IMG/VR virus record: IMGVR_UViG_3300019487_000088
Coordinates: 1-26,843 of that record
Direction: 5' to 3' (one strand)
Length of the DNA stretch: 26,843 nt
Origin: a virus
Shown: positions 14,756-24,709 of the stretch, piece by piece
Numbering within the stretch: the first letter of the stretch is position 1
Layout of the letters: the number at the start of each line of letters is the position of its first letter
Position numbers and translations under genes: made by a program
Notes under the pieces: generated by a model
What the model was told of the DNA's origin: nothing
Database searches by the model: none
Seen by the model: the letters and a program-made list of their open reading frames with translations, nothing else

Positions 14756-14898
14756 ACCGTCGTATCCCTGACCTGGTCGAGCTGGCCGGCGCCGCGCTGA
14801 TCGTCGTCGGCGTGAGCCTGCTCGCCGTGTGGGCCGGCCTGATCATCGCCGGCGCCGCCCTGATCGCGAAGGGCTACGCGATGGAGCAGCGCTCGTGA
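14752..14898 (+). CDS. Small membrane protein between terminase and portal
   Basis: 48 residues from the GTG at 14752 (GTGA overlap with the terminase stop), ending in a GTGA overlap with the portal gene. Nearly the whole protein is hydrophobic (LAGAALIVVGVSLLAVWAGL and following IIAGAALIA), probably two short membrane helices around a small turn. Small membrane proteins are common at this spot in actinophages, but their role is unknown. It is below usual length cut-offs for gene finding. Confidence 0.65.
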   Translation: MNRRIPDLVELAGAALIVVGVSLLAVWAGLIIAGAALIAKGYAMEQRS

Positions 14899-16187
14899 CG
14901 GTGCTGGGCACCCTGCTGGGCCGCCGGTCCTTGGAGGACCCGGCCCGCCCGCTGACCGACGCCAGCCTGTTGGACGTCTTGGGTGGGGAGCCGGCCGAGG
15001 CCGGCGTGGCGGTCACGGTCGAGTCGTCCTCACGGATGCTGGCGGTCTACCGCGCGCACGCGCTGCTGGGCGGGCTCATCGCCGGGCTGCCGCTGCACGC
15101 CTACCAGCGGCACCGCGTGGGCGGTCGGGCGGCCCGGCGGCAGGTCGACGCGCCGGTCATCACCGACCCGCACCCTGACGCCACCCCGTTCGAGGTCTGG
15201 GAGTACCTGGTCGTGTGCCTGATCGCGTGGGGCAACGCCTACGCGTTCAAGGCCCGCGACGGCGCCGGGCGGGTGCGGGAGCTGTGGCCGCTGCACCCGG
15301 CCCGCGTGCGGGTGGAACGCAAGTCGTCCTGGCGGACCGATGCCAACCCGTCCGGGAAGCGGTTTTTCGTGTACGGCGATGACGGCGCTGAGACGGTCTA
15401 CACCGGCGGGCCGCTGGGCGACCTGCTGCACATCCCCGGCCTGTCCTACGACGGGGTGAGGGGTGTCTCCCCGATCGGGCTGGCCCGCCAGGGGATCAGC
15501 CTGGGGCTGGCCGCCGAGCGGTTCGCCGCGCGGATGTTCGGCCGCGGCGCGCTCATCCCCGGCGTGCTGGAGACCGACCAGCAGTTGGAGAAGGAGGACG
15601 CGGAGCGGCTGCAGGCGCAGTGGGCGGCCAAGACCGCGGGAGATTTCGGGCAGTGGCGCATCCCCGTGCTCGACAAGGGCGCGAAGTTCCGCCCGGTCGG
15701 GCTGCCGCCCGCCGACGCGCAGTACATCGAGGTGCGCCGCTTCCAGGTCGTGGAGATCGCCCGCCTGTACGGGCTGCCCCCGCACTTGCTCGCCGACGTC
15801 GAACGCTCGACGAGCTGGGGATCGGGGATCGAGCAGCAGAACATGGCGATGCTGATCTTCACGCTCGATCCGTGGCTGGTCCGCATCGAGCAGCGCGCCA
15901 CCCGCGAGCTGGTGCTGTCCCGCAACACCTACGTCAAGTTCACCCGCGCCGGGCTGCTACGCGCCGACACGGCGACCCGGTACATGGCCTACCAGCGGGC
16001 CTGGACCAACAGCTGGCTGTCCGCCGACGACATCCGCGAGCTGGAAGACCTCGACCCGCTACCCGACGACATTGGCGACCAGTACTTCCGCCCGACCAAC
16101 CTCACGCCGGTCACCAGCCAGCCCGACCCGCAGCCCGACGCGTTGCCGGAAACCGACCCGGAGGAGGAGGACGACAATGCCGACTGA
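14895..16187 (+). CDS. Portal protein (HK97 family)
   Basis: 430 residues from the GTG at 14895. Family features include the N-terminal region around VLAVYRAHALLGGLIAGLPL, VCLIAWGNAYAF, the LWPLHPARVRV stretch, GVSPIGLARQGISLG, and the C-terminal region EIARLYGLPPHLLADVERST. The C-terminus is acidic (PETDPEEEDDNAD). The dodecameric portal is the vertex through which DNA enters and leaves the head and to which the connector attaches. It overlaps the protease gene by 11 bases. Confidence 0.92.
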   Translation: MTVLGTLLGRRSLEDPARPLTDASLLDVLGGEPAEAGVAVTVESSSRMLAVYRAHALLGGLIAGLPLHAYQRHRVGGRAARRQVDAPVITDPHPDATPFEVWEYLVVCLIAWGNAYAFKARDGAGRVRELWPLHPARVRVERKSSWRTDANPSGKRFFVYGDDGAETVYTGGPLGDLLHIPGLSYDGVRGVSPIGLARQGISLGLAAERFAARMFGRGALIPGVLETDQQLEKEDAERLQAQWAAKTAGDFGQWRIPVLDKGAKFRPVGLPPADAQYIEVRRFQVVEIARLYGLPPHLLADVERSTSWGSGIEQQNMAMLIFTLDPWLVRIEQRATRELVLSRNTYVKFTRAGLLRADTATRYMAYQRAWTNSWLSADDIRELEDLDPLPDDIGDQYFRPTNLTPVTSQPDPQPDALPETDPEEEDDNAD

Positions 16188-17022: not shown

Positions 17023-18291
17023 ATGACCGCGACGATGCTGCGCCGCGCGCTGGAGCGGCGCGTGAACACCTGGGAGCAGATGCAAGCCGTCATCGGCGCC
17101 GCCGAGGCGGGGGGCCGTGACCTGTCCGCCGAGGAGGCCCAGACCTGGGACCGGCTGGAGGCCTCACTGCGTGACGACACCGCCACGATCGAGCGGCTCG
17201 AGCGCGCCAACGCGCTGGAGACCCGCCTGGAGACCGTCGACCGCTCCGGGCTGCCCGCCGAGGACCGCACCGGCGACGACCGCGCCGACGCGGCAGAGGA
17301 CCGCGCCGCCGCCTACCAGACCGCGTTCGGCGCCTACCTGCGCCGAGGCCTCGGAGGCGTGCCCGCCGAGCAGCGCGACCTGCTCGAGGCCGGGTTCGTC
17401 CCCGGCGACCAGCTGCGCGCGCAGGGCATCTCCACCGACGCCGCGGGCGGGTTCCTCGTTCCCGAAGGGTTCCGCAACCGGCTGCAAGAGACGATGCGGT
17501 TCTACGCGGCGCTGCGGCCGATCGCGGAGACGATCACGACCGACTCCGGGAACAACCTGCCCTGGCCGACCAACGACGACACCGGCAACGAGGGCGCCTA
17601 CCTGGCCGAGCAGGCCGAAGTGCCCGAGCAGGACATGACCTTCGGGCAACGCCAGCTCGGCGCCCACACCATCACGTCCAAGATGGTCAAGGTGTCCCGC
17701 CTGCTGCTCCAGGACAGCGCGTTCGGCCTGGAGGAGTGGCTGCCCCGCAAGCTCGGCGAGCGCATTGGCCGCCGCGAGAACCGCGCGTTCACGCTGGGGT
17801 CTGGGATCGAGGAGCCCAAAGGCGTGCAGGTCAACGCCGTCGTCGGCAAGACCGGCGCGGGTGGGCAGACCACCTCGGTCACCTACGACGACCTCATCGA
17901 CCTGGAGCACTCGGTCGACGTCGCCTACCGCAACGAGCGGTCCCGCTGGATGTTCCACGACTTGACCCTGGCCGCGCTGCGGAAGGTCAAGGACGCAGAC
18001 GGGCGGCCGCTGTGGCAGCCCAGCCTGCAAGCCGGCGTCGCCAGCACCCTCAACGGCCGTCCTTACACGGTCAACAACAACATGCCGACCATGGCCGCGG
18101 CGGCCAAGAGCATCCTGTTCGGCGACTTCTTCGCCGGCTACGTCATCCGCGACGTCCGCGCGGTCGGGCTGATCCGCCTGGAGGAGCGGTACGCCGAGCG
18201 GCTGCAGGTCGCGTTCTTCTCCTTCGCCCGCCACGACGGCATGGCCCAGGACACCGCAGCCATCCGCGCCTACGCCAACGCCGCAGCCTAA
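17023..18291 (+). CDS. Major capsid protein (HK97 fold)
   Basis: 422 residues with an AGGAGG site nine to ten bases upstream. Residues 1-75 form a charged coiled-coil delta scaffold domain (ERRVNTWEQMQAVIGAAEAG and LRDDTATIERLERANALETR). The mature shell protein begins somewhere near residue 100, after which GGFLVPEGFRNRLQETMRFY, LPWPTNDDTGNEGAYLAEQA and the C-terminal VRAVGLIRLEERYAERLQVA follow the HK97 gp5 family. The protease gene just upstream would remove the delta domain. I could not decide whether crosslinking Lys/Asn residues are present. Confidence 0.92.
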   Translation: MTATMLRRALERRVNTWEQMQAVIGAAEAGGRDLSAEEAQTWDRLEASLRDDTATIERLERANALETRLETVDRSGLPAEDRTGDDRADAAEDRAAAYQTAFGAYLRRGLGGVPAEQRDLLEAGFVPGDQLRAQGISTDAAGGFLVPEGFRNRLQETMRFYAALRPIAETITTDSGNNLPWPTNDDTGNEGAYLAEQAEVPEQDMTFGQRQLGAHTITSKMVKVSRLLLQDSAFGLEEWLPRKLGERIGRRENRAFTLGSGIEEPKGVQVNAVVGKTGAGGQTTSVTYDDLIDLEHSVDVAYRNERSRWMFHDLTLAALRKVKDADGRPLWQPSLQAGVASTLNGRPYTVNNNMPTMAAAAKSILFGDFFAGYVIRDVRAVGLIRLEERYAERLQVAFFSFARHDGMAQDTAAIRAYANAAA

Positions 18292-18302: not shown

Positions 18303-18707
18303 ATGGCTGATCTGTACAGCGAGCACACCACCGTCCAGACCCTCGTGCCGGCCGCCCGAACCGCCAATGGCAACGGGACCACGGTCGACCGTGGCCAGAA
18401 CGGCGACGACTTCGCCTCGGCGATGTTCGTCGTGACCGCCGGGACGATCACCGACGGCACTCACACCATCGTCGTGGAGCACTCCGACAATGACGCCGCC
18501 TGGTCGGCGGTAGCAGCCGGCGACTTGCAAGGCGTCCCGCCGGCGATCCTGGCCGCCGATGACAACAAGCGGTTCGAGGTCGGCTACCAGGGCAAAAAGC
18601 GTTTCCTGCGGGCTAACGTGACCGTGGCGGGCGCGACCACGGGCGGGGTCTATGGCGTCCTGGTCTTGCTCGGCCGCCCCCGTGTCGCCCCGGTCACGAG
18701 GCTGTGA
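18303..18707 (+). CDS. Capsid-adjacent beta-rich protein, possible decoration protein
   Basis: 134 residues from the ATG at 18303 with AAAGGAG at 18290-18295. Predicted all-beta: FASAMFVVTAGTITDGTHTI, HSDNDAAWSAVAAGDLQG, then FEVGYQGKKRFLRANVTVAG. The pattern is seen in many phage structural proteins located after the capsid gene. The strong ribosome-binding site suggests high expression, which would fit a capsid surface or tail-associated component. The exact function is not known. Confidence 0.6.
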   Translation: MADLYSEHTTVQTLVPAARTANGNGTTVDRGQNGDDFASAMFVVTAGTITDGTHTIVVEHSDNDAAWSAVAAGDLQGVPPAILAADDNKRFEVGYQGKKRFLRANVTVAGATTGGVYGVLVLLGRPRVAPVTRL

Positions 18708-19012
18708 TGACGATGGCCGCCACGAAGTGGATCAGGGTCCTGCAGCCGGTCGCCGGCGACGGGTTCTCCTGGAAGCCTGGTGACCTCGTCGAACTGCCCG
18801 CCGCCCAGGCCGACGCCTGGTGCGACGGCACCCGCGCCGAAGCGGTCCGCACACAACCCAGGCAGGTCGCCATGAGCGACACCGAGCAGCCCGGGCCCGA
18901 GGGCGAGGAGGACGAGCGTCAAGAGCGGCCGAGACGGGCCCAGCCGCGGCCGCGGGCAAGTCGGCCGCGGGGCGAGCAGGCCACTGCCCGCCCGGCAGGT
19001 GAGCAGCGCTGA
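18707..19012 (+). CDS. Small head-region protein with Arg/Pro-rich tail
   Basis: 101 residues from the ATG at 18707 (TGATG); a GTG at 18704 or an ATG at 18713 are alternatives. Residues about 6-50 form a compact beta domain (WIRVLQPVAGDGFSWKPGDL and AAQADAWCDGTRAEAV) often seen next to head-tail connector genes. The second half is highly charged and disordered (EGEEDERQERPRRAQPRPRA). Its 3' end carries the ribosome-binding sequence and CTG start of the connector gene. Confidence 0.55.
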   Translation: MTMAATKWIRVLQPVAGDGFSWKPGDLVELPAAQADAWCDGTRAEAVRTQPRQVAMSDTEQPGPEGEEDERQERPRRAQPRPRASRPRGEQATARPAGEQR

Positions 19013-19857
19013 CCGAGACGATCCTGCGGGACACCGCGCGCACCCTTGAGGTCACCTTCTACCCGCCCGGGTCGGAGACCGGCGCCGACGCTGGCGCGAC
19101 CACGATCGAGGTCCTCCGCGGCGACGGCAGCGCGCTCGTAGCCGCCGGCACTCCCGCCACCAACGCGGGTAGCGGAAGGTACACCTTTGCGCTGACCGCG
19201 GCGCAGACGGCTCAGCTGGACCGGCTGGCCGCCGTGTGGACCTCGACGAGCCAGGGCAAGCGCACGACCTATGCCCAGATCGCCGGCGGCGTCTACGCCA
19301 CCCTCGCGGACATCCGCGCCCTCGCGGATCTCGCCGACCCGGCCCGCTACCCCACCGCCCGCCTCGTCGAGTCCCGGCAATGGGCGCAGGCCCTCATCGA
19401 GGACTACTGCAGGGTCGCGTTCGTGCCCCGCTACGCCCGCGAGCAGCTGACCGGATCGGGAGCTCCCATGCTGATCCTGCCGCGGCCGCGGCCGCGGCTG
19501 CTGCTGGCCGCCACCGTCGACGGCGCCGCCGTCACCAGCGGCGACCTAGCCGCCTGGACTCTCAAGCCCAGCGGCGTCGTCGAGCGCACCAGCGCCTTCC
19601 CCGCCGGCCGGCCGGTGGTCGTGGCCTACGAGCACGGCGAGGACGCCCCACCGGCCGACCTGAAGGAGGCGTGTCTGACCTTGTGCCGCTATTGGCTGCT
19701 CAACCGCCGCGAGGCCATGTTCGACCGGGCCCGCGCGGTCCGCGACGAGCTCGGCGTCACCTACCTGTCCCAACCTGGCGACCGCCGCCCCTCCGGGCTG
19801 CCCGCGGTCGATGCGGTCCTCAACCGCTACGCCGATATCACGCCTTCGGTCGGATGA
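19009..19857 (+). CDS. Head-tail connector (HK97 gp6-like) with probable CTG start
   Basis: 282 residues if translation begins at the CTG at 19009, which overlaps the previous stop (CTGA) and has AGGTGAG at 18997-19003. An in-frame stop at 19000-19002 rules out any earlier start. The first ordinary start in frame is the GTG at 19234, which would discard 75 well-formed residues. The N-terminal 75 residues form an Ig-like beta domain (ILRDTARTLEVTFYPPGSET, ending YTFALTAAQTAQLDRLAAVW). Residues about 100-282 are a gp6-type helical connector (FVPRYAREQLTGSG, LKEACLTLCRYWLLNRREAM). N-terminal domain plus connector is a combination known from other actinophages. It docks under the portal. Confidence 0.75.
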   Translation: MTETILRDTARTLEVTFYPPGSETGADAGATTIEVLRGDGSALVAAGTPATNAGSGRYTFALTAAQTAQLDRLAAVWTSTSQGKRTTYAQIAGGVYATLADIRALADLADPARYPTARLVESRQWAQALIEDYCRVAFVPRYAREQLTGSGAPMLILPRPRPRLLLAATVDGAAVTSGDLAAWTLKPSGVVERTSAFPAGRPVVVAYEHGEDAPPADLKEACLTLCRYWLLNRREAMFDRARAVRDELGVTYLSQPGDRRPSGLPAVDAVLNRYADITPSVG

Positions 19858-20294
19858 GCACCTCGACCATCCCCGCCGTCAAGGACGCGCTCGTCGCTCG
19901 GCTGCGCGCCCATCCCACCCTGGCCGGTGTGCAGGTCGAGCGCAGCCACCCCGGCGACACGCTCGAGCAGGAAGCCGTCTGGCTTGGCAGGGTCATTGGG
20001 TCCAACAGCTGGGTCGCGATGCGCGCCGGGCGGAAACCGCGCGACGAGTCCTACACCGTCCAAGTGTTCATCGAGGTCATCATGCCCGGCGAACCCGAGA
20101 CCGCCGCGGAGGACCGGGTCCTGGCGTGCTACGGCGCGCTCGAGGACGTGATCGCCGAAGACCCCCGCCTAGGCGTGACCGGGGTGGAGTCGATGCGTGT
20201 CGCCGAGTACGAGCTGGACTCGGGCATCGACGGGGAAGGCGCCGGCGCGGCCAACATGGCCGCCGGTGTGCTGGTCGGCGCCCGCCTGTCCTAA
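19854..20294 (+). CDS. Tail terminator / neck protein
   Basis: 146 residues, ATGA overlap with the connector gene. The opening STIPAVKDALVARLRAHPTL with VQVERSHPGDTLEQEAVWLG and a central strand YTVQVFIEVIMPGEPETAAE matches the small alpha/beta proteins that cap the tail tube (lambda gpU / HK97 gp10-neighbour type). It would set tail length and join the tail to the head. The assignment is by pattern and position before the tail tube gene. Confidence 0.65.
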   Translation: MSTSTIPAVKDALVARLRAHPTLAGVQVERSHPGDTLEQEAVWLGRVIGSNSWVAMRAGRKPRDESYTVQVFIEVIMPGEPETAAEDRVLACYGALEDVIAEDPRLGVTGVESMRVAEYELDSGIDGEGAGAANMAAGVLVGARLS

Positions 20295-20313: not shown

Positions 20314-20505
20314 ATGCCTAAGCGTGTCTACGTCGGCGCGGTCGACGGGATCGAAACCGTCCTGGACGGCCGTGTCATCGTCGTCGAGCGTGGCCAGGAG
20401 GTCGAGGTCAGCGTCGAGCAGGCGAAGCTGTTGGACGCGCAGCCGGACAATTGGGCGACCGTGGCCGGCGCCCGCAAGGCGACCGCGAAGGACGGTGACG
20501 CCTGA
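20314..20505 (+). CDS. Small structural-region protein
   Basis: 63 residues from the ATG at 20314, with AAGGAG at 20301-20306. A compact beta domain (KRVYVGAVDGIETVLDGRVI, then VVERGQEVEVSVEQAKLLDA) ending in DNWATV, a pattern common in small proteins encoded next to the tail tube in actinophages. Resembles the first half of the 18707-19012 protein. Function unknown. Confidence 0.6.
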   Translation: MPKRVYVGAVDGIETVLDGRVIVVERGQEVEVSVEQAKLLDAQPDNWATVAGARKATAKDGDA

Positions 20506-21494
20506 TGCCTGGAGTCCTGGACGCGCAGCTGCACGTCGGCCGCGAGACCACCTACGGCACACCGGTCGCTACCAGCAGGTCGTACGAGGCGCTGGCGGAC
20601 GGGCACAAGCGCCCGCCCATGCACCTGGTCTCCGAAGGGATGCGGATCGGCGCGCAAGCGACCGAGTCGGACCGCAGCCGCATCGTCAACATGGGCGCCG
20701 AGGGCCCGATCGAGGTCGACGTCCACAACAAGGGGCTCGGGCTGCTGCTCCAGGTGCTCATGGGACCGCCGGTGATCACGACCCCCGGCGGCGGTGTGAA
20801 CAGCCGGCTGCACACCTACGCCTCGACCTCCGACGCGCCCAACGAGTCGCTGACCGTGAAGCTGGGCCGGCCGCCCGTGTCCCCGGCCGCGGTGCAGCCG
20901 TTCACCTACCACGGCGGCGTGCCGACCAAATGGTCGCTGTCGCAGGAGGTCGGCGACGGCGCGTCCGGGCTGCTCAAGCTGAAGCTGGAGATGGACTACG
21001 AGGACGAAGACACCACCACCGCCCTCGACGCGCCCGCCTACCCCACAACCACCACGCCGTACGGCTGGCCCGACCTTGCCCTCACCGTCGCCGGCGCACC
21101 GGTCGATATCATGAAGTTCGGCTTCGAGGCCGACGCCAACGTCAGGACCGACCGACGGTTCTGCCGCGGCTCATCGTTGAAAAAGATGCCCAAGCGGCAG
21201 GGCAGGCCGACCTACACCGGGCAGCTGGACGCCGAGTTCGAGGACCTTGTCCAGTACGACCGGTTCCGCTCGGGCGCGGTCGTGCCGATCGTGGCCAGCT
21301 GGACGGGTGCCATCATCGAAGGCGCCATCCCCTTCCTGCTCAGGGTGACGTTGCAGGCGTGCCAGTACACCGGCGAGACCCCTCAGGTCAGCCTGGACGA
21401 CATGCCCCAGCAGCCGCTGCCCTTCAAGGTCTTGTGGGACCGCACCAACCCCGCGGTCAAGGTCGAATACCAGACCACCGACCTCGCCGCCTAG
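20505..21494 (+). CDS. Major tail tube protein
   Basis: 329 residues, start overlapping the previous stop (TGATG). The N-terminal region (LHVGRETTYGTPVATSRSYE) and the central MRIGAQATESDRSRIVNMGA followed by GPIEVDVHNKGLGLLLQVLM are typical of actinophage tail tube proteins of the phage_tail_tube_4 type. The rest alternates beta strands as expected. Hexamers stack around the tape measure to form the tail shaft. Confidence 0.8.
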   Translation: MPGVLDAQLHVGRETTYGTPVATSRSYEALADGHKRPPMHLVSEGMRIGAQATESDRSRIVNMGAEGPIEVDVHNKGLGLLLQVLMGPPVITTPGGGVNSRLHTYASTSDAPNESLTVKLGRPPVSPAAVQPFTYHGGVPTKWSLSQEVGDGASGLLKLKLEMDYEDEDTTTALDAPAYPTTTTPYGWPDLALTVAGAPVDIMKFGFEADANVRTDRRFCRGSSLKKMPKRQGRPTYTGQLDAEFEDLVQYDRFRSGAVVPIVASWTGAIIEGAIPFLLRVTLQACQYTGETPQVSLDDMPQQPLPFKVLWDRTNPAVKVEYQTTDLAA

Positions 21495-22465: not shown

Positions 22466-22551
22466 GCGCACGCCGCCTTGGTGTCCTGCTGTCCCGGCTG
22501 CCGCCGGAATCCATGACCGTCCTGTCGACCCTGCCGCCGGAGAGGGGGTGA
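22055..22551 (+). CDS. Tail assembly chaperone, long form by -1 frameshift (gpGT-like)
   Basis: About 165 residues: 100 from the short-form frame, then a -1 shift at GGGGGAA (22348-22354) and 65 more ending at the TGA at 22549. The -1 frame is closed by a TGA at 22327-22329 and has no plausible start before the shift. It encodes a well-formed chaperone domain (ISLGRLLTQQWEDVEADFAR, FYRIDLPAAVWG, LSARRLGVLLSRLPPES) typical of the T-part of actinophage chaperones. Such a shift is conserved in long-tailed phages. The exact slip base is inferred. Confidence 0.75.
22348..22354 (+). promoter_or_regulatory. Slippery sequence for -1 frameshift
   Basis: GGGGGAA read as G GGG GAA in the short-form frame. 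The Gly-tRNA can re-pair perfectly with GGG one base back. The -1 frame is open from 22330 to 22551. No other run of this type lies in the permitted interval. Confidence 0.6.
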
Positions 22552-22567
22552 CCTCATCGCTCAGTCC

Positions 22568-24709
22568 TTGCGTGTACTGGTCACCGGCGACGGCCGTGAG
22601 CTCCGCGAGGTATTGCGGCAAGGCGACCGTGACTTGCGCGGCTTCGGGACCGTGTCGACCAACATCGGCAACCGCTTCCGGATCGGGTTCGGGACCGCGA
22701 TCAAGGCCGGAGCCGCGGCGGCCGCAGGCGGCATCGCCCTGGCGATAGCGGGAGTCCCCAAGCTCCTCAACGCTGCCGCGCGGTTGGAGTCGATGGGACG
22801 CAAGTCCGCGACCGTGTTCGGCGACCAGTTGCCCGTCGTCCAACGCTGGGCCCGCGAGGCCGCCGCCGGCATGGGCTTGACCGCCCGACAGGCGACCGGT
22901 CTGGCAGCCAACTTCGCGGACCTCCTCGTGCCCATGGGCTTCGCCAGGTCCGAAGCCGCGAAGATGGCCACCGACGTCGTCGGCCTATCCGGCGCCCTGG
23001 CCGAGTGGTCCGGCGGCCAGCGGAGTGCCGCCGAGGTCGCCGAGATCCTGTCCGCCGCCATGTTGGGCGAACGCGACGCCCTCCAAGGCCTCGGCATCTC
23101 CATCTCCCAAGCCGAGGTCGACGCCCGGATCCTCGCCAACGCGCAGAAAGGGTTGACGTTCGCGACCGAGGAGCAGGCCGCCGCGTTCGCCACCCAGCAG
23201 ATCATCTTCGAGAAGTCCAAAGACGCCCAGACCGCCTACGCGAACTCCACCGACGACCTCGCGTCGCGGCAGGCCAAGCTGACCGCCTGGCTTCAAGGCC
23301 TCAAGGAGGCCGCGGTCGGCGTCGCGATCCCCGCCCTCGTCGCGGTGGGGGACGCCGCCGTCGGACTGGGCCAGAGGCTCTCGGCGAGCGTGGAGCGGCT
23401 CAACCTCGGCCCCATCGGCCAGGTCATGGTCGCGCAGATCCGTGACTCGTTCGCTGAAGGCGACTGGACAGGAGTCGCGAGCGCGATCGGCGCCGGGCTG
23501 AGAGTCGCGCTCGGCCGTGTCGCCGGGCTTGGCACCGATCTCACCGCCCGTTTCGAGGCCTGGCTTGCCGAGACTGACTGGACCCGCGTCGGCGCGGCGG
23601 CCGGGACCGGCATCGCCAATGGCCTCAGCGCCATCGTCAGCATGGCTGACACGCTGGCTGACGCGTTCGGCCGCTGGATCGACTCGGTGGATTGGGCCAG
23701 CGTCGGCCTACGGCTGGGGTTGGCCGCTCCCAAGCTCGTGTTCGGCCTGGTGGTCGGGCTGCTCAACTTCGATGTGACCGAGTTGTTCGGGTTCATCGCC
23801 GAACACTGGAAAGAAGTCCTGATCGCGGGCCTGATCGTCGCGTTCGCGCCCGGCAGGCTGCTCGGCGCGGTTGCGGGGATCATCGGGAGGATTCCCTTCG
23901 TCGGCCCGGTCATCGCCAAAGGCCTGGTGTGGTTCAACGAGATCGGCCACAAGTTCCTCGGCTTCCTCGCCGACTTCGTCCTCGGTCCCTTCGGGCGCAA
24001 GCTGGGAGGCGAGGGACTGGCCCAGGTGCTGTCCCACCTCGGCCAGTTCTTCACCGGGCTACGCAGCCGAGGCGTGGCCGGGATGCGCTCGTTTGGGGAC
24101 GACATCGCGCTGCGCCTGTCGAGCGCGATGGAGTTCCTCGGCGCGGTGATCAACCGGATGATCACGATCCCCGCGCGCGCGATGGGACGAGGGGTCGAGT
24201 ACGTGTTCCGCCCGTGGATCGACGCGGTCGGTCAGATGGTCCGCATCGGCGGTGACCTGATCGGCGGCCTGCTGCGCGGCCTCGAAGGGCGGGTCGGGTC
24301 GATCCTGTCCGCGGCCAGGCGGATCGCCGATCAGGTCACCTCGACGATCCGCCGGGCGTTGGACATCCGCTCACCCTCCGGGGTAGGCGAGGACATCACC
24401 CTACGGTTCGGCGACGGGTTGGTCCTCGGCCTGGAGCGGGCCGAGGCCGCGGTGGCGGCCGCCTCGGCACGGCTGGCCGGCACCGTCGTCGCTGGCGCGC
24501 AGCCGCTTGCGGGCTCTGCCCCAGCGGCCGCGCCGGGAACGCTGGCCGCCAGCGCGGCCGCCGGCAACAGCCGCGTGGTCGAGCTGCTCGCCCGCCTGGT
24601 CGACCTGTTAGAGCGCCGCGGCGCGGGTGCTGCGATCACGGTCAACGACCAGTCCGGCTCCCCGGTGGACACCGCCCGCGCCGTGGCGCTTGCTCTTAGG
24701 ACCCTGTAG
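22568..24709 (+). CDS. Tape measure protein
   Basis: 713 residues from the TTG at 22568. The frame also contains ATC at 22556, which would give an opening x-A-Q-S-L-R-V-L and lies five bases after AGGGGGTG; the true start is uncertain. The sequence shows RVLVTGDGRELREVLRQGDR, a hydrophobic N-terminal region (AAAAAGGIALAIAGVP), a minor-tail-like domain with AEVAEILSAAMLGERDALQG and ISISQAEVDARI, and hydrophobic segments about 405-455 (VLIAGLIVAFAPGRLLGAVA). The C-terminal end ALDIRSPSGVGEDI is typical of tape measures. At roughly 1.5 angstrom per residue this predicts a tail near 105 nm. Confidence 0.9.
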   Translation: MRVLVTGDGRELREVLRQGDRDLRGFGTVSTNIGNRFRIGFGTAIKAGAAAAAGGIALAIAGVPKLLNAAARLESMGRKSATVFGDQLPVVQRWAREAAAGMGLTARQATGLAANFADLLVPMGFARSEAAKMATDVVGLSGALAEWSGGQRSAAEVAEILSAAMLGERDALQGLGISISQAEVDARILANAQKGLTFATEEQAAAFATQQIIFEKSKDAQTAYANSTDDLASRQAKLTAWLQGLKEAAVGVAIPALVAVGDAAVGLGQRLSASVERLNLGPIGQVMVAQIRDSFAEGDWTGVASAIGAGLRVALGRVAGLGTDLTARFEAWLAETDWTRVGAAAGTGIANGLSAIVSMADTLADAFGRWIDSVDWASVGLRLGLAAPKLVFGLVVGLLNFDVTELFGFIAEHWKEVLIAGLIVAFAPGRLLGAVAGIIGRIPFVGPVIAKGLVWFNEIGHKFLGFLADFVLGPFGRKLGGEGLAQVLSHLGQFFTGLRSRGVAGMRSFGDDIALRLSSAMEFLGAVINRMITIPARAMGRGVEYVFRPWIDAVGQMVRIGGDLIGGLLRGLEGRVGSILSAARRIADQVTSTIRRALDIRSPSGVGEDITLRFGDGLVLGLERAEAAVAAASARLAGTVVAGAQPLAGSAPAAAPGTLAASAAAGNSRVVELLARLVDLLERRGAGAAITVNDQSGSPVDTARAVALALRTL

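Follow-up and report, generated by a model that had tools for sequence, protein, structure and literature searches.

A probable CTG start codon for an Ig-bearing head-tail adaptor gene in a metagenomic siphophage

Where does a phage gene begin when an in-frame stop codon closes its reading frame upstream and no ATG, GTG or TTG follows until well inside the coding region? This question is raised by the head-tail adaptor (connector) gene of the virus analysed here, a metagenomic contig recorded in IMG/VR, the full 26,843 bases of which are referred to below as the window. The answer that we favor, and regard as probably correct, is that the CTG codon at 19009 is the real start of a siphophage head-tail adaptor of 282 residues that carries an Ig-like domain at its N-terminus. 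The features that bear on the argument are as follows.

14829-16187: portal
17023..18291, + strand: major capsid protein (Pfam Phage_capsid, E 1.8e-70)
18704..19012, + strand: 102-aa gene upstream of the adaptor, its stop TGA at 19010-19012 overlapping the CTG
18997..19003, + strand: Shine-Dalgarno-like AGGTGAG inside the 102-aa gene, of which AGGTGA (6 bases) is complementary to the end (3') of the 16S rRNA
19000..19002, + strand: TGA in the adaptor frame, its upstream limit, read from the sequence
19009..19857, + strand: head-tail adaptor (connector), 282 aa, with full-length matches to phrog_442 and phrog_30828
19009..19011, + strand: probable CTG start codon of the adaptor, at the homologous start position and within the CTGA overlap 19009-19012
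19009..19287, + strand: N-terminal Ig-like beta-sandwich, residues 1-93, predicted from model strands and a filamin profile match
19234..19236, + strand: GTG encoding residue 76, the first canonical in-frame start and very probably a gene caller's false choice
19288..19857, + strand: C-terminal head-tail adaptor domain, residues 94-282, assigned from structural alignments (Z 11-12)
19854..20294, + strand: next neck/tail gene, with an ATGA overlap with the adaptor stop
20505-21494: tail tube

The adaptor reading frame and its upstream junction

The structural module runs in the order portal, prohead protease, capsid, 134-aa gene, 102-aa gene, adaptor, neck/tail gene, 63-aa gene and tail tube, so that the adaptor lies between the capsid (17023-18291) and the tail genes (tail tube at 20505-21494). 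After the TGA at 19000, the codons from 19003 read GCA GCG CTG ACC GAG ACG ATC CTG, and the frame stays open to the TGA at 19855-19857, which amounts to 284 codons from stop to stop and 282 from the CTG. The earliest ATG, GTG or TTG in this frame is the GTG at 19234, 75 codons past the CTG; the 75-residue truncation to which the first-pass annotation of this DNA had drawn attention can thus be read directly from the sequence. The same annotation had proposed that AGGTGAG stands just upstream of the CTG and that the CTG overlaps the stop of the previous gene, and both proposals hold: the six-base AGGTGA match within 18997-19003 is suitably spaced from the CTG at 19009, and this codon shares its TG with the stop codon of the 102-aa gene to form CTGA. 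Given that the flanking gene junctions are GTGA (at 18704) and ATGA (at 19854), the CTGA is the usual four-base overlap layout of this neighbourhood with C replacing A or G.

CTG accounts for 4.7% of codons, so that the triplet by itself is weak evidence. An anti-Shine-Dalgarno match of at least six bases at suitable spacing, in turn, is rare: 1.5% of internal codons have one ahead of them (4 of the 244 internal CTGs), and the same scan detected no match for the GTG at 19234. The G+C content of the 75 restored codons, by codon position, is 0.68/0.63/0.89 vs 0.72/0.56/0.92 in the remaining gene; the restored codons share the third-position G+C bias of the rest of the adaptor gene.

Several other ways to begin or extend the frame were considered and rejected. 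The near-cognate codons ACG at 19018 and ATC at 19021 lack a Shine-Dalgarno sequence, and the CTG at 19024 has a weak one of 4 bases. Frameshift fusion with the 102-aa gene was set aside because homologs encode the adaptor as a separate gene with its own start; inspection by eye of the junction between the two genes revealed no slippery run. Readthrough of the TGA at 19000 was dismissed as well, the preceding sequence being the 102-aa gene in a different frame.

With regard to the 102-aa protein itself (18704-19012), its N-terminal residues, approximately 40 in number, are conserved in some 25 related loci, and its tail, within which the Shine-Dalgarno sequence of the adaptor is encoded, is charged and of low complexity. 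Elsewhere in the window (22517-22568), the first canonical start in the tape measure frame is a TTG at 22568 that lacks a Shine-Dalgarno sequence, and an ATC at 22556 in this frame is preceded by a five-base match.

The protein and the start position of its homologs

In profile searches with the 282-aa product, residues 5-274 matched positions 3-260 of 270 of phrog_442, a head-tail adaptor family (E 1.2e-26), and residues 4-281 matched phrog_30828 (E 2.2e-34); the N-terminal 75 residues searched alone retrieved phrog_30828 as well (E 2.6e-4). The AlphaFold2 model, which was built from 13 sequences and has a mean pLDDT of 78.7, places seven strands within residues 11-91, followed by a helical/beta domain. 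Residues 94-282 align with neck adaptors, namely those of phage T5 (9ilp), Mycofy1 (gp8, 9lw9) and a gene transfer agent (6tba), at Z 11-12, and residues 1-93 align with Ig domains at a modest Z of about 8; furthermore, the adaptor family profile has a match among filamin Ig domains (E 1.4e-5). The N-terminal Ig-like beta sandwich is complete in the CTG-started product as modelled. Residue 76, encoded by the GTG at 19234, falls in the middle of the modelled strand 71-79, so that a protein begun there would keep a mere fragment of the sandwich. By analogy with the family, this adaptor would sit beneath the portal as a ring, presumably of 12, from which the Ig-like domains project outward.

Related prophages and viral contigs were reached via the capsid protein, and the adaptor alignment, used directly as the query, yielded 80 viral-contig homologs, 58 of which align up to the N-terminus; 44 of these are distinct at 85% identity. 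All 44 non-redundant homologs have an ATG, GTG or TTG start between -11 and +3 codons from the position of the CTG (the nearest start codon is GTG in 22, ATG in 20 and TTG in 2), and with F17 in the first strand as a fixed reference, the distance from the start comes to 17 residues for the CTG vs a homolog median of 18. None of the 58 N-terminally aligned homologs starts near residue 76. In the best full-length homolog (L246, 42% identity), GTG ACC stands opposite CTG ACC of the window, with no gap over the first 40 residues, and the adaptors of actinobacterial prophages agree with those of the viral contigs on the start position. This shared start position is the strongest evidence against chance, and it essentially settles the start site: all 44 homologs start there, none starts near residue 76 and L246 aligns ungapped. 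That translation starts at 19009, whatever the base, is nearly certain. The suggestion of the first-pass annotation that the CTG restores a full-length connector accordingly stands, with profile matches that extend from residue 4-5 to residue 274-281. An alignment with homologous connectors, which it had put forward as a check, bears out the N-terminal domain and the start position; the start codons, on the other hand, are all ATG, GTG or TTG in the N-terminally aligned homologs, and never CTG.

The Ig-like domain is present on the prophage adaptors of Goodfellowiella (L028) and Streptomyces (L033 and L039) and on many viral contigs, and is absent from connector homologs of about 200 aa (L002/L026, L016, L197). 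Hence the domain, though common, is not found in every connector, and a short form of the adaptor had to be weighed. The earlier supposition that a beta domain is joined to connectors in other actinophages is borne out for the actinobacterial prophage adaptors, which carry an Ig-like sandwich, with the domain-free homologs as a reservation. Among named phages, tblastn gave no match at 1e-5, and a single, chance-like match at E 3.

Two loci, L263 and L268, were considered as homologs without a canonical start near the CTG position and were rejected because each has, further upstream in the same frame, an additional Ig-like domain that starts with GTG. These loci (L263:141-1403, L268:1099-2361) encode two different Ig-like domains in tandem ahead of the adaptor domain, of which the first is similar to its N-terminal counterpart in the Goodfellowiella and Streptomyces adaptors and the second to that of the window. 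In L002, the closest capsid relative first found, some 4.6 kb with two large ORFs (L002:7924-12590) separate the homolog of the 102-aa gene from an adaptor without the Ig-like domain, and L112 and L032 have a similar gap; one of the large ORFs of the L002 insert contains, as judged by eye, the motif ILAGQSNM, which is typical of SGNH esterases.

The base at 19009 and the rival explanations

The computed evidence consists of the frame, the domain, the homologous start position and the Shine-Dalgarno sequence; that the C at 19009 is the true base, that CTG initiates and that coupling assists it is what we infer. Base 19009 is also the fourfold-degenerate third base of a CGC arginine codon in the 102-aa gene, and A, G or T in its place would create a canonical start while leaving the 102-aa protein unchanged, so that one of them might be anticipated in a working gene. 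Could the base, then, simply be wrong in the metagenomic contig, the true codon being ATG, GTG or TTG at the same site and the full-length protein remaining correct? The CTG is one base away from each of these codons, all the homologs are canonical at its position (with GTG in L246), mycobacteria initiate poorly at CTG (PMC4633059), and a pattern scan for near-identical contigs that would permit a check of base 19009 gave four matches, none related to the adaptor, and yielded no second copy. However, the frames of the portal, protease, capsid, tail tube and tape measure genes are intact, so that the density of errors looks low, and CGC is the commonest CGN codon here (225 of 426), which implies that codon preference may hold C at this position. 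An error at this base would, however, give just the same picture. On balance, we deem a wrong base unlikely.

The two remaining explanations take the sequence as it stands. A start at the GTG at 19234 would produce an adaptor of 207 residues that lacks the Ig-like domain, like the known adaptors of about 200 aa, and would make use of the first canonical start in the frame; yet this codon, buried in a strand, lacks a Shine-Dalgarno sequence, no domain-bearing homolog begins at the position of residue 76, and the 75 preceding codons retain both coding bias and family similarity, all of which makes such a short form scarcely credible. Nor does it seem at all probable that the start codon was recently lost, leaving a phage that is defective or makes little adaptor: the CTG is indeed the sole exception in the adaptor family and a weak initiator (PMC11497404, PMC4633059), but the adaptor gene and its neighbours are whole, and the Shine-Dalgarno sequence and the four-base overlap have been kept.

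CTG initiation and comparison with known systems

CTG is a permitted start codon in NCBI translation table 11. Experimental work nevertheless portrays it as a weak one: in a mycobacterial reporter library with a Shine-Dalgarno sequence, ATG, GTG and TTG each accounted for 20-29%, whereas CTG reached 0.03% and was not enriched (Shell et al. 2015, PMC4633059); in E. coli, complexes formed for initiation on CUG are less stable (PMC11497404). The NTGA four-base overlap with an internal Shine-Dalgarno sequence is a common layout for translational coupling (PMC6728339, PMC12548453), and RTGA overlaps occur in mycobacteria (PMC4633059). In the coupled overlaps, as in the window, stop and start share TG and the Shine-Dalgarno sequence lies in the upstream gene, the difference being that the window has CTGA in place of ATGA or GTGA. 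If CTG 19009 is the working start, the AGGTGA near the end of the 102-aa gene would position ribosomes or 30S subunits at the CTG, ribosomes terminating at the TGA at 19010 would probably re-initiate there through the CTGA overlap, the initiator tRNA would read the CTG, and coupling could compensate for the weakness of this codon.

A bolder proposal, which we find rather doubtful, is that the CTG is kept on purpose, being too weak alone in an actinobacterial host and working only via termination-reinitiation at the CTGA; under this proposal, and with the same degree of doubt, the amount of the Ig-bearing adaptor would be tied to translation of the 102-aa gene. If so, a codon scored as inactive in reporter screens can be made usable by coupling. 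Be that as it may, the junction offers a clean test, provided by nature, of whether in actinobacteria a CTG start can be rescued by a stop that overlaps it together with a Shine-Dalgarno sequence.

Comparison with known adaptors sets the window apart in the start codon. Ig-bearing adaptors of phrog_442/phrog_30828 (L028, L033, L039, L246) are the same two-domain protein at full length with the same start position, and the prophages L028, L033 and L039 share the neighbourhood of the window (capsid, small genes, adaptor, neck/tail genes), but these adaptors begin with ATG, GTG or TTG and that of the window with CTG. Mycofy1 gp8 (9lw9), the T5 head completion protein (9ilp) and the gene transfer agent neck protein (6tba) have the fold of window residues 94-282, and their chains (167-194 aa), unlike the window adaptor, have no N-terminal Ig-like domain. 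For one ORF of phage phiB124-14, CTG is proposed as the start, as in the window (PMC3338817); there the CTG appears to be a predicted ORF start, whereas for that of the window the support comes from where 58 homologs start.

The probable CTG start of the adaptor is a single further example of a known rarity and otherwise ordinary biology. One instance, the base of which is unverified, leaves the general picture unchanged; it is useful for annotation. A gene caller limited to ATG, GTG and TTG would cut 75 residues, most of the Ig-like domain, and virion models and domain censuses based on such calls would be wrong here. Searches for further CTG starts, through CTGA junctions in approximately 1.3 Mb of G+C-rich loci and by homology in 2.3 Mb, produced no convincing second case, although the power of both was low, with many antisense shadow frames. 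In a Rhodopila MAG, the frame of the capsid gene (L070:8420-8700) lacks a canonical start for 41 codons, although its homologs begin near codon 1-6; further upstream, this frame resembles a near-repeat of the gene's own N-terminus, which suggests duplication or a frameshift.
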